Source: Acidobacteriota bacterium (GTDB lineage Bacteria > Acidobacteriota > UBA6911). Taken from it: a stretch of 35,687 bases of DNA. The translations under genes and the position numbers were made by a program. Shown here piece after piece: positions 15,504-26,525 of this stretch. The DNA lies in contig JAAYCX010000055.1 of assembly GCA_012729555.1 (NCBI GenBank), positions 1 through 35,687 of the forward strand. Direction: 5' to 3'. Each line of letters begins with the position of its first letter. The first letter of the stretch is position 1. The notes under the pieces were generated by a model, which was not told the DNA's origin, did not search any database, and was given only the letters and a program-made list of their open reading frames with translations.

Positions 15504-18500
15504 ATGCTTTACCTGCTGATTCTCGCCTGCTTTCTGGTCTCGGGGATTACGGGCCTGATCTACCAGGTCCTCTGGACCCGTATGATCGTCGGCATCATCG
15601 GGAGCTCCCCCTTTTCGGTCACCATCGTGCTGGCCGTCTTCATGGCGGGGCTCGGGCTGGGGAGCGCCGTTGCGGGGAAGACGGTGGACCGCGTCGCCCG
15701 GCCGGAAAAACTGATCCGGGTCTACGGCCTGCTCGAACTGGGGATCGGGCTCTACTGCCTCCTCCTCCCCCTGCTGCTCCTCCTCTTCAAGCCCCTGTAC
15801 GCCTGGATCTACAACCGGCTATTCGACCATTTCCTCCTGTATAACCTCCTGACCTTCGCCGGGTGCGCCCTCGTCCTCATCCTCCCGGCCACCTTCATGG
15901 GGGCCACCCTCCCGGTGCTCAGCCGGTTTTTCGTCAACACGCTTTCCCGGGTGGGGACGCACGTGGGGCGGCTGTACGGGCTGAACACCATCGGTTCGGC
16001 CGCCGGGTCGCTGCTGTGCGGTTTCTGGCTGATCAACCTCGTCGGGGTGCGAGGGGTTCTCGCCGTCGCCGTCCTTCTCAACGCCGGCATCGGTCTCCTA
16101 TGCCTCCTGGTCAGCCGGCGCCGGACGGGCTGGATCGCGCCGCAGGAGACGGAGGAAGGGACCGGGCCGCGGGCGCCCAGGCCCCGCAAGCCCGCTCCCC
16201 CCGCCGGGGAGGTGGTGCCCGTCGGAGTCGTGCTCGCGGTGTTCGCCGTCACCGGGTTCTGCGCCATGGCCTACGAGGTGATCTGGACCAGGCTCCTGGG
16301 GCTGCTGGTCGGGCCGACCACCTACTCCTTCACCGTCGTCCTGGTCACCTTCATCACCGGGCTGGCGCTCGGGAGCTTTTTCTTCGGGTGGCTGGGGGAC
16401 CGGGTCAAACTCCCGGCCGTGCTCCTGGTCCTGACCCAGATGGCCGCCGCCCTCACGGCGCTCCTGGCGAGCCAGGTCATCGGCGACAGCCAGATCTTCT
16501 TCGCCAAGCTGATCCATCTCCATCAGGACAGCTTCGGTTCGCTCTACCTCATGAAGGGGATCGTCCTCTTCGGGTTCATGTTCCTGACCACCTTCTCGCT
16601 CGGCGCCGCGTTCCCCCTGGTGGGGAAGATCTACACCCGGTCGCTCGCGGCCACCGGCCGCTCCATCGGCTACGCCTATGCCGTCAATTCCATCGGTGCG
16701 GTCCTGGGCTCCGCCGTGGCGGGTTTCGTCCTGATCCCCTTCCTCGGCAAGGAAAACGGCCTCCGCCTGGTTATCGGCCTCCAGCTCGCCGCCGCGCTCG
16801 GGGCGTGGCTCGTCATCGCCGCCGCTCGGCGGAGCACCTTCCCCCGCCGCTTCGCCCTGGCCCTCCCCGCGCTCCTGGGGTTCGGGCTGATGGCGGCGTT
16901 CCCCAGCTGGGACCACGTCATGCTCTCCATGGGGAAGTACCACCGTTTCGACCGGCCCGAGCTTCGTGACATCGGGTGGCTCGAGTCGCTCCTGGCCTGG
17001 GAGAAGCATTTCCCCGACCTGAAATCGGAAAAGCTCCTCTTTTACGGGGACGGCATCGGCGGGTTCACCACCGTGCTCGAATCGACCGGACTGCTGGGGG
17101 ACGTCAACTACAACCTGTGCAACAGCGGCAAGCCGGACGCCTCCTCCACGCGGGACATGGACACGCAGACGCTCCTGGCCCATTTCCCCCTCCTGTACCA
17201 CCCCGCCCCCGACGACGTACTGGTCATCGGCCTCGGGAGCGGGATAACGGCGGGCGAAATCCTTCACTACCCGGTCAAACGGCTGGACGTCGTCGAAATC
17301 AACGAGCAGGTGGTGGAGGCGAGCGGTTTCTTCACCCCCTGGAACAACCGGGTGCTGGAGGACCCGCGCACCCGGCTGATCGTGCAGGACGGGAGGGCGC
17401 ACCTGGAACTGGCCAGCCGGAAGTACGACCTCGTCACCAGCGAACCGTCCAACCCCTGGATGTCGGGGATCGCCGCCCTGTACACCCGGGACTTCTTCGA
17501 ACTGGTGGCCTCCCGGCTGAAACCGGGGGGGATGTTCGTCCAGTGGATCCCGGCCTACCAGATGGACTGGGAGGCCTTTTCCATGATCGGGCGGACCTTC
17601 GCCTCCGCCTTTCCCCGGAGCCTGCTGGTGTCGACCAACCCGGCCCGCCCCTCGAGCTTCCTCTTCGTGGGGATCCGGGGGGAGGGGGGGCTGGACGCCC
17701 GGACGGCGGAGGCGAACCTGGCCTATGCGGCCCGATCGGGCAATATCCGCCTTGCGGACGGCCGGATCCTCCAGAACCTGATCGTCAGCGACAGCCTCCC
17801 CTCGCTCTTCGCCAAGGGGCCGATTCACACCGACAACCACCCGCTGCTCGAGTACCACGCCCCCCGGGCGATGCACGTCATGGACGACACGATCATCCGG
17901 CGGATCGGCTCCGCCGCCGGGTACGGCGTCAGCGAAGGGCTGGCGGCCGCCATCCGGGAGAACCAGGACGACGTGGAGCGGCAGGTGGCCTACGCGGAAT
18001 ATTTCCTGAACTTCCGCGGAGTCGACAGCTCGGCCCTGCAGTACCGGGTGAACCTCGCCGCGGCGACGCCGGCGGAGAGGGAGCGGCATGCGGCCAACGT
18101 CGAGCGGTTCTGCCGGCTGAACCTGGTCACCGAGTTCCGGGCGCTGACCGATCCCGCCATCCGCGAGCGGTGCTACGCGGCCCAGGAGGAGGCGGTCACG
18201 GCGCGTCTCGGGCAGGCGGCGGACAAGGCCCCGCTCTACTCCCACCTGGGGGCGATCAGCCTCGAGAACCGGAGGCCGGAGAAGGCGATCGACTATTTTT
18301 CGCGCGAAGCCGGGCTCCATCCCCGGGACAAGGCCGCCCGGAACAACCTCGGGACGGCCTACGCTTCGGCCGGCCGGCACGCGGAGGCGGCCCGGGAGTA
18401 CCTCCGCGCCCTCGAGATCGACCCCGGCTACGTCCAGGCCCACGTCAACCTCGGCCTCTCCCTGGCGTCCCAGGGGCGGTCGCGGCTCGGAGAGGCCATC

Positions 18501-18689
18501 GTCCATTTCCGGGCGGCCCTGGAACTCGACCCCGAGAACGCCGATACCCACAACCATCTGGGCACGGCGCTGATGGCCGGGGGGGACGTCAACCCGGCCA
18601 TCGTCCATTTTTCGCGGGCGCTGGAGATCCGCCCCGGCTTCCCGCCGGCGGAGAACAACCTGCGGCGGGCGCTGGCGCTCCGGAAATAA
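15504..18689 (+). CDS. Fused MFS-like / spermidine-synthase-like / TPR membrane protein
   Basis: A 1061-residue protein in three parts. Residues 1 to about 470 form a double set of membrane helices, beginning SGITGLIYQVLWTRM and repeated near 250 as CAMAYEVIWTRLLGLL, which shows an internal duplication. Residues about 560-800 resemble the SAM-binding fold of spermidine synthase, with VLVIGLGSG near 572-580 and VEINEQ. The catalytic Asp region of true synthases reads SEPSNPW here, so aminopropyl transfer is doubtful. Residues about 910-1055 hold four TPR repeats for protein contacts. Family members occur widely in environmental bacteria without a proven reaction. A methyl or aminopropyl transfer to a membrane or exported product is a guess. 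It is likely the only gene of its transcript. Confidence 0.88.
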   Translation: MLYLLILACFLVSGITGLIYQVLWTRMIVGIIGSSPFSVTIVLAVFMAGLGLGSAVAGKTVDRVARPEKLIRVYGLLELGIGLYCLLLPLLLLLFKPLYAWIYNRLFDHFLLYNLLTFAGCALVLILPATFMGATLPVLSRFFVNTLSRVGTHVGRLYGLNTIGSAAGSLLCGFWLINLVGVRGVLAVAVLLNAGIGLLCLLVSRRRTGWIAPQETEEGTGPRAPRPRKPAPPAGEVVPVGVVLAVFAVTGFCAMAYEVIWTRLLGLLVGPTTYSFTVVLVTFITGLALGSFFFGWLGDRVKLPAVLLVLTQMAAALTALLASQVIGDSQIFFAKLIHLHQDSFGSLYLMKGIVLFGFMFLTTFSLGAAFPLVGKIYTRSLAATGRSIGYAYAVNSIGAVLGSAVAGFVLIPFLGKENGLRLVIGLQLAAALGAWLVIAAARRSTFPRRFALALPALLGFGLMAAFPSWDHVMLSMGKYHRFDRPELRDIGWLESLLAWEKHFPDLKSEKLLFYGDGIGGFTTVLESTGLLGDVNYNLCNSGKPDASSTRDMDTQTLLAHFPLLYHPAPDDVLVIGLGSGITAGEILHYPVKRLDVVEINEQVVEASGFFTPWNNRVLEDPRTRLIVQDGRAHLELASRKYDLVTSEPSNPWMSGIAALYTRDFFELVASRLKPGGMFVQWIPAYQMDWEAFSMIGRTFASAFPRSLLVSTNPARPSSFLFVGIRGEGGLDARTAEANLAYAARSGNIRLADGRILQNLIVSDSLPSLFAKGPIHTDNHPLLEYHAPRAMHVMDDTIIRRIGSAAGYGVSEGLAAAIRENQDDVERQVAYAEYFLNFRGVDSSALQYRVNLAAATPAERERHAANVERFCRLNLVTEFRALTDPAIRERCYAAQEEAVTARLGQAADKAPLYSHLGAISLENRRPEKAIDYFSREAGLHPRDKAARNNLGTAYASAGRHAEAAREYLRALEIDPGYVQAHVNLGLSLASQGRSRLGEAIVHFRAALELDPENADTHNHLGTALMAGGDVNPAIVHFSRALEIRPGFPPAENNLRRALALRK

Positions 18690-24722: not shown

Positions 24723-24749
24723 GGGAGATTTCATCAAAGGAGGCGCCCC

Positions 24750-26525
24750 ATGGCACGACAGGGAGGGAGATCGACGACATCGCTGGTTGCGGTCCTGGAC
24801 CCGCGCGGGCAGCCCACGGCCGAGGTGGAGCCCCTTCCCCTGGCCCCCCGCCTGGACACCCTGCGGGGGCGGACGGTCTATTTCATCGACGTCGGGTTCG
24901 GCGGGGGCTGGGAGTTTCTCGAGGAGGCGGTGGACTGGTTCCACCGCCATCTTCCCGAGGTGAAGACGGTGCTCGAGCGGAAAAGGGGGATCATGTTCGC
25001 CGACGAGCCGGAGACATGGGCCAGAATCCAACAGGACGGGGACGCCGTGGTCTTCGGCGTGGGGGGTTGAGACGGGTGCACGGCGAGTGTCGCCGCCCAT
25101 TGCAGGGAACTGGAATCGAAATACGGCGTCCCCACCGCCCCGCTGGCCAGCGCCCGCTTCGCCGACTACGCGGAGCGCGATGCCCTCAACCACGGGATGA
25201 AGCTGCGCTTCACCTTCCCCCCCTATCCCCTTGTGGGAAGGCCGCGGGAGGTGCTCCGCCGCTACGTCGAGGGGAACGACGCCGTTACCGGGCGCCCGTT
25301 GATGCCCCAGGTCGTCGAGGCGCTGACGGCCCCCCTGACGGAGGAGGAACGGCACCCGCGGGCGGCCCGGCAGGCCCCCCGCCCGAGGCTGCTCCAGCCG
25401 GACACCGAGGAGAACCTCCACCGGCTCTTCCTCGAAAGCGGCTGGACCGACGGGGCCCCCATCGTCCTTCCCACCGAGGAGCGGGTGGCGCACATGCTCA
25501 CCGGGACCGCGGCCGACCCCGGTGAGGTGGTGGGGCGCATGTCGGTCACTATCCACCAGGAGAAGCTCGAATACACCGTGGAGAAGGTGGCCGTAAGCGC
25601 GGTGATGGCGGGGGCCGGCCCCGAACACCTCCCCGTAATCCTGGCGCTCGCGGCCAGCGGCGAGTGCTCCATGCCCAGCTCCACCACCTCCTTCGGCAGG
25701 ATGGCGGTGGTGAACGGGCCGATCCGGGAGGAGATCGGCATGAATTCGGGCCTGGGTGCCCTCAGCCCCTTCAACCATGCCAACACGGTGATCGGGAGGG
25801 CGTGGACCCTCATGACCCTGAACCTGGGGGACGCCCGGCTGGGGGAGACCTTCATGGGGTCGACGGGCAACAACCTGAATTACCAGAACATGCTCTTCGC
25901 CGAGAACGAGGAACGCAGCATCTGGGCCCCCTTCCACGTGCGGCGGGGGTTCGGGCGGGAGGAAAGCGTCCTCAGCCTCTTCCAGGGGTGGAGCGTCGTC
26001 AACAGCATGGGAGCGGCCGGGTGCCGCCGCCCGGCCGAGGAGGAGACCCTGATCCTCATGAATGCCTTCCCCGGAATGCACGGGGCCCTCACCCTGGTGA
26101 TGGACCCCCTCGTGGCCCGGCACCTCGAGGAGCGGGGGTTTGACGGTCCGGAGAGCCTCGCGCGCTACCTGTCGGAAAACTTCCGGATGCCCGCCGGGCA
26201 GTTCTGGGGGTCCGACGTCGTCTATTCCCTGGTGGAGCCCTCCGCGCGCGCCGGGGTGCAGCCCTACGCCTCCTGGCTCGACCTCCCCGGCGACACGCCC
26301 GTCGCCCCCTACACCTCCCCCGACAATATCCACGTCGTGGTGGCGGGGGGGGAAACCCAGGCGCTGTGGCTCACCACCGACATGTGGCACACCGGGTCGG
26401 TGTCGATCGACCGGTGGAGGCCCGCAGGCGGCGTGTACCGGGAGGATGAACGGGCGGGGCGGCGGCGCGACGCGCGCCGGAAGCGGCATGCGGCCGCGCT
26501 CAGGGCTTCCGGCTACGATCTCTAG
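24750..26525 (+). CDS. Predicted selenoprotein: UGSC-like domain fused to a large unknown domain
   Basis: One 591-residue product if the in-frame UGA at codon 107 is read as selenocysteine. AAAGGAGG six bases before ATG 24750 is the best ribosome binding site in the area. The N-terminal domain (about 10-210) starts with VAVLDPRG and LAPRLDTLRG and reaches VVFGVGG-Sec107-DGC110, matching the (U/C)-x-x-C site of the UGSC (seleno)protein family, with LESKYGVPTAPL after it. The domain continues in the same frame past the UGA without other stops. The second domain (about 215-590) begins LFLESGWTDGAPIVLPTEERV and contains VEKVAVSAVMAG and VVNGPIREEIGMNSG; I recall such proteins beside UGSC genes but know no function. 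A Sec-Cys redox centre suggests an oxidoreductase. The alternative is a gene broken by a nonsense mutation. Confidence 0.8.
25068..25070 (+). other. In-frame UGA, predicted selenocysteine codon
   Basis: UGA is codon 107 of the gene that begins at 24750. The frame before it is open for 106 codons from a strong start, and the frame after it is open for another 484 codons, with codon usage of the same GC-rich type on both sides. The UGA falls exactly where UGSC-family proteins have Sec or Cys, two residues before a Cys. Confidence 0.78.
25071..25104 (+). promoter_or_regulatory. Candidate bacterial SECIS element
   Basis: CGGCGA (25081-25086) and TCGCCG (25090-25095) form a perfect 6-bp stem with the apical loop GTG, 16 bases after the UGA. 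The stem can be extended below by GGG (25074-25076) with CCC (25096-25098), or alternatively by TGCA with TGCA (25077-25080, 25101-25104). A short stem close to the UGA with G as first loop base is what the elongation factor SelB recognises in bacterial SECIS models. High GC makes hairpins common, so this is supportive, not proof. Confidence 0.65.

Follow-up and report, generated by a model that had tools for sequence, protein, structure and literature searches.

The gene at 24,750 to 26,525 of the window (the whole 35,687-nucleotide contig analysed here, from an Acidobacteriota bacterium of the GTDB lineage UBA6911) is, judging from its sequence and those of its relatives, a genuine selenoprotein gene that ordinary annotation would split in two. 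Its in-frame UGA, codon 107, almost certainly encodes selenocysteine (Sec), and the product joins a UGSC-family domain to a large partner domain. We think it rather likely that this family is a thioredoxin-dependent Sec reductase in which the UGSC domain and the partner act together. The frame runs from the ATG at 24750 through 106 sense codons, the TGA as codon 107 and 484 further codons to the TAG at 26523-26525 (Table 1). Sequence and translation agree in this with an earlier note on the same DNA, which had described the ribosome binding site, both open stretches, the UGA and Cys110, and had placed the opening of the second domain at the GWTDG-PIV-PTEERV segment, where we also find it. Upstream and downstream of the TGA alike, the protein closely resembles its homologues, with 77% identity to loci L039 and L040 across residues 1-590. 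The genes flanking the window copy are unrelated, and no conserved operon was found around it. Elsewhere in the window (15504-18689) lies a gene for a 1061-residue protein, seemingly a membrane protein that has TPR repeats and a part resembling spermidine synthase, relatives of which occur near other family copies (L021, L022, L057, L073, L074, and L083).

Table 1 Features of the selenoprotein gene (window coordinates)
Feature	Position	Strand	Details
Ribosome binding site AAAGGAGG	24736..24743	+	6 nt ahead of ATG 24750
Whole selenoprotein gene	24750..26525	+	591 residues, ATG to TAG
UGSC domain	24792..25271	+	Pfam PF24696, 71.8 bits, residues 15-174
In-frame TGA	25068..25070	+	Sec107 (predicted)
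Cys110	25077..25079	+	Invariant Cys of the UxxC pair
SECIS-type hairpin	25081..25095	+	6-bp stem CGGCGA/UCGCCG, apical loop GUG, loop 16 nt past the UGA
C-terminal partner domain	25374..26522	+	Residues 209-591, includes GWTDG-PIV-PTEERV

The earlier note had read codon 107 as Sec, and the homologues bear this out. Among 98 aligned homologues (19 copies from the same genome, including the distant p19, plus 79 loci from GTDB genomes) the codon at the Sec column is TGA in 87, TGC in eight, Leu in two and Met in one, i.e., Cys is the sole common alternative while Leu and Met are confined to side branches. Cys110 is kept in all 95 members with Sec or Cys, the Sec-site label switches only four times on the homologue tree, and the Cys forms in that tree make up two groups in Pseudomonadota. 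The frame is intact, and homologues read through the UGA. The host genome (98.9% complete) contains all four genes that the note had proposed to look for: tRNA-Sec (selC; 72.4 bits, with a TCA anticodon according to ARAGORN), selB (380 bits), selA (564 bits), and selD (369 bits), the last with a UGA of its own. This in-frame TGA of selD (AAGUAAKMG; L153, G000:C9:39575-40507) lies within an open frame of 643 codons, perhaps a larger or fused SelD. The note had named three findings that would overturn its reading, and none of them was made.

The motif U-D-G-C is present in the window protein as the note had described; its view of this motif as a special deviation from U-G-S-C does not hold, since the family motif is simply UxxC, as already given in a 2008 report (PMC2398784), and the family alignment contains UDGC (27), USTC (24), UPGC (13), and others. 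The two proteins with Leu at the Sec site (GQLDTC; L084:5580-7418 and L086:7408-9186) are sisters, each adjoining another family copy in opposite orientation, and are possibly inactive paralogues paired with an active one. One branch of fused UGSC-partner proteins lacks both Sec and Cys at this position (L035:6672-8384 on the minus strand, L162:5314-7038, and L161:4371-6056); the own copy of this branch reads GDMGTSPATC, and in Sporomusa termitida and Vibrio europaeus its members lie near aconitase X and DUF126 genes, neighbours that make a non-redox or different function likely.

A SECIS-type hairpin is conserved downstream of the UGA, as far as sequence comparison can tell. In the class to which the window copy belongs the loop starts 16 nt past the UGA and reads GUG, GUA, or GUC, and the 6-bp stem is paired in 20/20 distinct sequences. 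The commonest other class has the loop GGUC (GGUU once) starting at 17 nt, with four pairs formed in 26/26; GGUC is the core of the Escherichia coli fdhF SECIS loop. Mean hairpin energy is -12.9 kcal/mol at Sec sites versus -7.8 elsewhere in the same genes (p 3e-15), and -9.5 in Cys homologues (n = 8). Coding constraint acts on the stem positions too, and most stem pairs vary little. Folded plainly and by itself, the stretch from the window copy does not stand out from shuffled sequences (z -0.39), and p16-p18, the own copies with the UGSC motif proper, show no clear hairpin of this geometry.

The N-terminal domain, the same UxxC-bearing domain as in the UGSC family of PMC2398784, exceeds the Pfam cut-off of 25 bits in a match that spans the TGA, and 18/18 paralogues match the same model. 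The NCBIfam equivalog NF041046 (UGSC_fam) gives 45.5 bits, under its curated cut-off of 125, and a pipeline relying on that model would therefore probably miss the window gene. AlphaFold predicts the whole protein (with Cys modelled for Sec) at a mean pLDDT of 89 and a pTM of 0.89; residues 36-200 of the model match Rossmann/flavodoxin-like chains (best Z about 10), and residue 107 sits where a helix begins, directly behind a strand. The modelled UGSC domain thus resembles a Rossmann/flavodoxin-like alpha/beta fold. In 2008 the fold was judged to be probably thioredoxin-like (PMC2398784). No thioredoxin stood among the structural matches seen, all of which were Rossmann/flavodoxin-like, although absence from such a list is no proof. 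A UxxC redox pair is common to the window protein and the thioredoxin-, peroxiredoxin-, and glutaredoxin-like selenoproteins, but the predicted fold of residues 36-200 in the former matches Rossmann/flavodoxin-like chains. Sequence searches of the PDB with the UGSC family and with PrdB-like proteins yielded nothing above noise.

The C-terminal 380 residues are covered by no Pfam family and are likely the 'Unknown_1' domain of the 2008 report, which lists a UGSC/Unknown_1 fusion from GOS data without giving a function (PMC2398784). The single fused polypeptide proposed in the earlier note stands; the fusion as such is not new. The note also took the second domain for a possible partner half, which split gene pairs elsewhere bear out. 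In genomes of the external loci, a partner gene is adjacent and on the same strand in 8/8 stand-alone Sec-UGSC genes examined, and in several pairs (L131, L144, and L145) the stop of one gene and the start of the other overlap. Of 149 surveyed genomes from the phylum, 14 had matches. Nine of those that lie outside the home genus contain a Sec-UGSC piece as well as a partner piece, mostly close together and some divergently transcribed, and a tenth had only a fragment at a contig end; haloarchaeal plasmids carry split UGSC/partner pairs of the Cys type. Given the constant adjacency and the split pairs, the C-terminal domain is best seen as a putative obligate or near-obligate partner of UGSC, fused to it in some lineages, i.e., as a regular companion, whereas the 2008 report (PMC2398784) lists the fusion without a function. 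Modelled alone, the partner reaches a pLDDT of 86.8 and has no confident match in the PDB (the best Z in VIA, 5.5, was taken as no match). A fumarate hydratase fold, the best Foldseek match at E 8e-4, was rejected at a TM of about 0.2 or less. The partner domain has no invariant Cys; its conserved residues include Asp234, Asn322, Asn345, Arg350, Glu385, and His396.

Gene neighbourhoods connect the family to thioredoxin. The order is trxB, trxA, partner, UGSC in Arthrobacter ERGS1:01, partner, UGSC, trxB in Roseovarius THAF8, trxB, importer, short-chain dehydrogenase (SDR), partner in Variovorax SRS16, and UGSC, partner, thioredoxin reductase-like flavoprotein, SDR in Haloterrigena. Such flavoproteins, with CASC or CATC, also adjoin the family gene in L087, L092, and L094, and CxxC is present in those of Haloterrigena and Variovorax boronicumulans. 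The partner of L149/L150 has an N-terminal CPTC domain that, searched alone, hits Thioredoxin_2 (1.5e-5) and TraF (4e-5), only the TraF match exceeding its curated cut-off. No thioredoxin gene lies beside the window copy; it is in the clusters of relatives that they are present. SDR genes occur within 250 bp at 16/96 loci (Pfam-confirmed for twelve SDR genes of the cluster), a count that lacks a proper genomic background and has as its sole control about ten elsewhere in the same loci, where most genes lie. Other neighbours are tungsten-type aldehyde:ferredoxin oxidoreductases (near own copies p04, p06, p17, and p18), a glycyl radical enzyme with its activase (near p05) and, recurrently, amidohydrolases and TTT, TRAP, ABC, or MFS transporters. 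Together these neighbours suggest a role in the catabolism of organic compounds; their variety agrees with a wide range of substrates and equally with a general redox role.

Seventeen more full-length relatives are encoded in the same genome, all with one in-frame TGA at this position, i.e., 18 UGA copies in all, besides the distant p19, which has no TGA at the site. These 18 copies are scattered over the tree, which argues against a recent tandem burst. In nine genomes of the same genus the matches number 11-35 per genome and mostly contain one TGA, against 0-2 in the surveyed genomes that do not belong to it. A signal-peptide-like start is seen in 16/18 own copies; the window copy and p02 are without one, and the window copy is probably cytoplasmic. 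At external loci the count was 5/61, a hint at most, owing to the crude hydrophobicity rule used and the 18 loci skipped. A loose residue scan of second copies in multi-copy loci showed further UGA copies in L049 and L053. Large selenoproteomes have been described (57 genes in an Olavius symbiont and 63 in a Methylomirabilota MAG, PMC13188914); within our partial coverage of the literature we found no report of an expansion of the UGSC family.

A distant relation of the UGSC Sec region to selenoprotein B of the D-proline and glycine reductases is suggested by profile comparison. The Pfam model GRDB (PF07355) matches none of 18 members at E up to 10 and nothing in the host genome, and since its matches to PrdB/GrdB-like proteins of the phylum break off immediately ahead of Sec, it does not see the stretch that aligns with UGSC. 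When a profile built from seven PrdB/GrdB-like proteins of the phylum, read through Sec, was compared with UGSC by hhalign, the two aligned Sec on Sec at a probability of 92% (E 6e-7) in what is one pairwise test over 55 columns around the Sec motif only; control comparisons of the partner with either profile gave 0.4% each. PrdB/GrdB have a UxxC-type Sec motif in common with the window protein. Thioredoxin reductase and thioredoxin genes are present in the clusters of UGSC relatives, and the partner may be a separate substrate-side part. In contrast to PrdB/GrdB, many UGSC copies are exported, and only the Sec region aligns. The partner is not recognisably a pyruvoyl subunit of the PrdA/GrdE type (no Pfam match to that family in 18 members), and since it lacks an invariant Cys, the Cys-derived pyruvoyl chemistry of PrdA/GrdE would not be shared and the substrate must be activated in another way. 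Acidobacteriota also have short selenoproteins of the PrdB/GrdB-like kind, in which the motif is UPxC or UPxxC (L118-L124).

In the mechanism proposed for PrdB, the pyruvoyl subunit PrdA holds the substrate, the selenolate attacks the alpha-carbon of that substrate, Cys releases the selenoether and re-reduction follows; in glycine reduction, electrons come from NADPH via thioredoxin reductase and thioredoxin (PMC3091704). We postulate a similar course for the window family. UGA 107 would be decoded as Sec by SelB and tRNA-Sec via the hairpin just downstream, giving one 591-residue protein in which the UGSC domain, with its Sec107/Cys110 pair, and the partner act jointly. The partner probably binds or activates the substrate, and the action would resemble that of the Sec-bearing subunit in D-proline and glycine reductases, with the selenolate attacking a carbon of the activated organic substrate and expelling a leaving group, Cys110 breaking the resulting selenoether, and thioredoxin reductase/thioredoxin re-reducing the Se-S bond. 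It is the gene organisation that links the two halves to each other and to thioredoxin, while the chemistry and the substrate are what we infer. Against a thioredoxin-driven reaction stands the fact that the exported copies (16/18) cannot meet cytoplasmic thioredoxin directly; for these a periplasmic thiol donor may take its place. The copies in the home genus, most of them exported, would have diversified, probably for different substrates. More tentatively, and with rather less confidence than in the reductase activity itself, UGSC and its partner could form a further class of thioredoxin-driven selenoenzyme reductases beside the glycine/betaine/sarcosine and D-proline reductases, a class without Cys-derived pyruvoyl, fused or split in bacteria and present among haloarchaea as Cys forms; its radiation within a single acidobacterial genus would have given rise to many copies, mostly exported, for different substrates.

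Other explanations have to be weighed against this one. The protein could be a thiol-redox protein of the peroxidase or disulfide-reductase type, acting in the detoxification of peroxides, disulfides, or metals and oxyanions, with Sec meeting the oxidant and thioredoxin recycling the UxxC pair. The motif and the thioredoxin neighbours are compatible with this, the many exported copies could face external oxidants, and most selenoproteins lacking a function have been given thiol-redox roles (PMC2398784). We nevertheless regard it as unlikely, given that the genes nearby are for catabolism and for the import of organic compounds and not for stress, that a simple peroxidase has no need of a conserved 380-residue partner, and that 18 diverged copies suggest a variety of substrates. 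Still less probable is a complex of partner and UGSC that handles sulfur, selenium, or metals as a carrier or transferase, in which Sec would be a ligand or acceptor instead of a redox catalyst. Sec does serve as a ligand in several enzymes, the fold of the partner is not recognised and some members have Met or Leu at the site, yet Cys110 is retained in 95/95 members whose residue 107 is Sec or Cys, and the UGSC/partner pair occurs together with genes for thioredoxin reductase.

There is hardly any likelihood left for the UGA being an ordinary stop or a sequencing or assembly error, with the downstream ORF a separate protein or pseudogene. Split genes in other lineages might be taken to favour it, but the same UGA recurs 18 times within one genome and is shared by 87 homologues that span many phyla, and the first start codon of the downstream frame comes only at 25197, inside the conserved UGSC domain; stop, frameshift, and pseudogene are ruled out by this conservation, the exchange with Cys, the SECIS hairpin, and the complete Sec machinery.

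What is already known, according to PMC2398784, is the UGSC family and its fusion to a second domain, without a function; as far as our partial coverage of the literature extends, what is new is the regular partner, the association with thioredoxin, the remote link to proline/glycine reductase, and the radiation within one genus. The 18 copies, the thioredoxin link, and the resemblance to the reductase Sec domain are absent from the earlier note. UGSC proteins were among the commonest selenoproteins of ocean and lake metagenomes, and the ties to a fixed partner, to thioredoxin, and to the proline/glycine reductase Sec domain turn this orphan family into a testable enzyme class. The Cys versions in isolates of Roseovarius, Variovorax, and Arthrobacter allow biochemistry without Sec incorporation. 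Even in isolates, UGSC genes are cut at the UGA or omitted, and a single genome can therefore hide 18 of them. On a plasmid of Paracoccus ferrooxidans the annotation breaks the Sec-UGSC gene (L165:4435-5004) at the UGA into two hypothetical proteins. The partner gene is its neighbour, and selB follows 4.4 kb downstream on that plasmid. A Cys-type fused copy on Neorhizobium galegae plasmids (L154:7980-9648) adjoins malonyl-CoA genes and is annotated in one strain as two overlapping hypothetical proteins.
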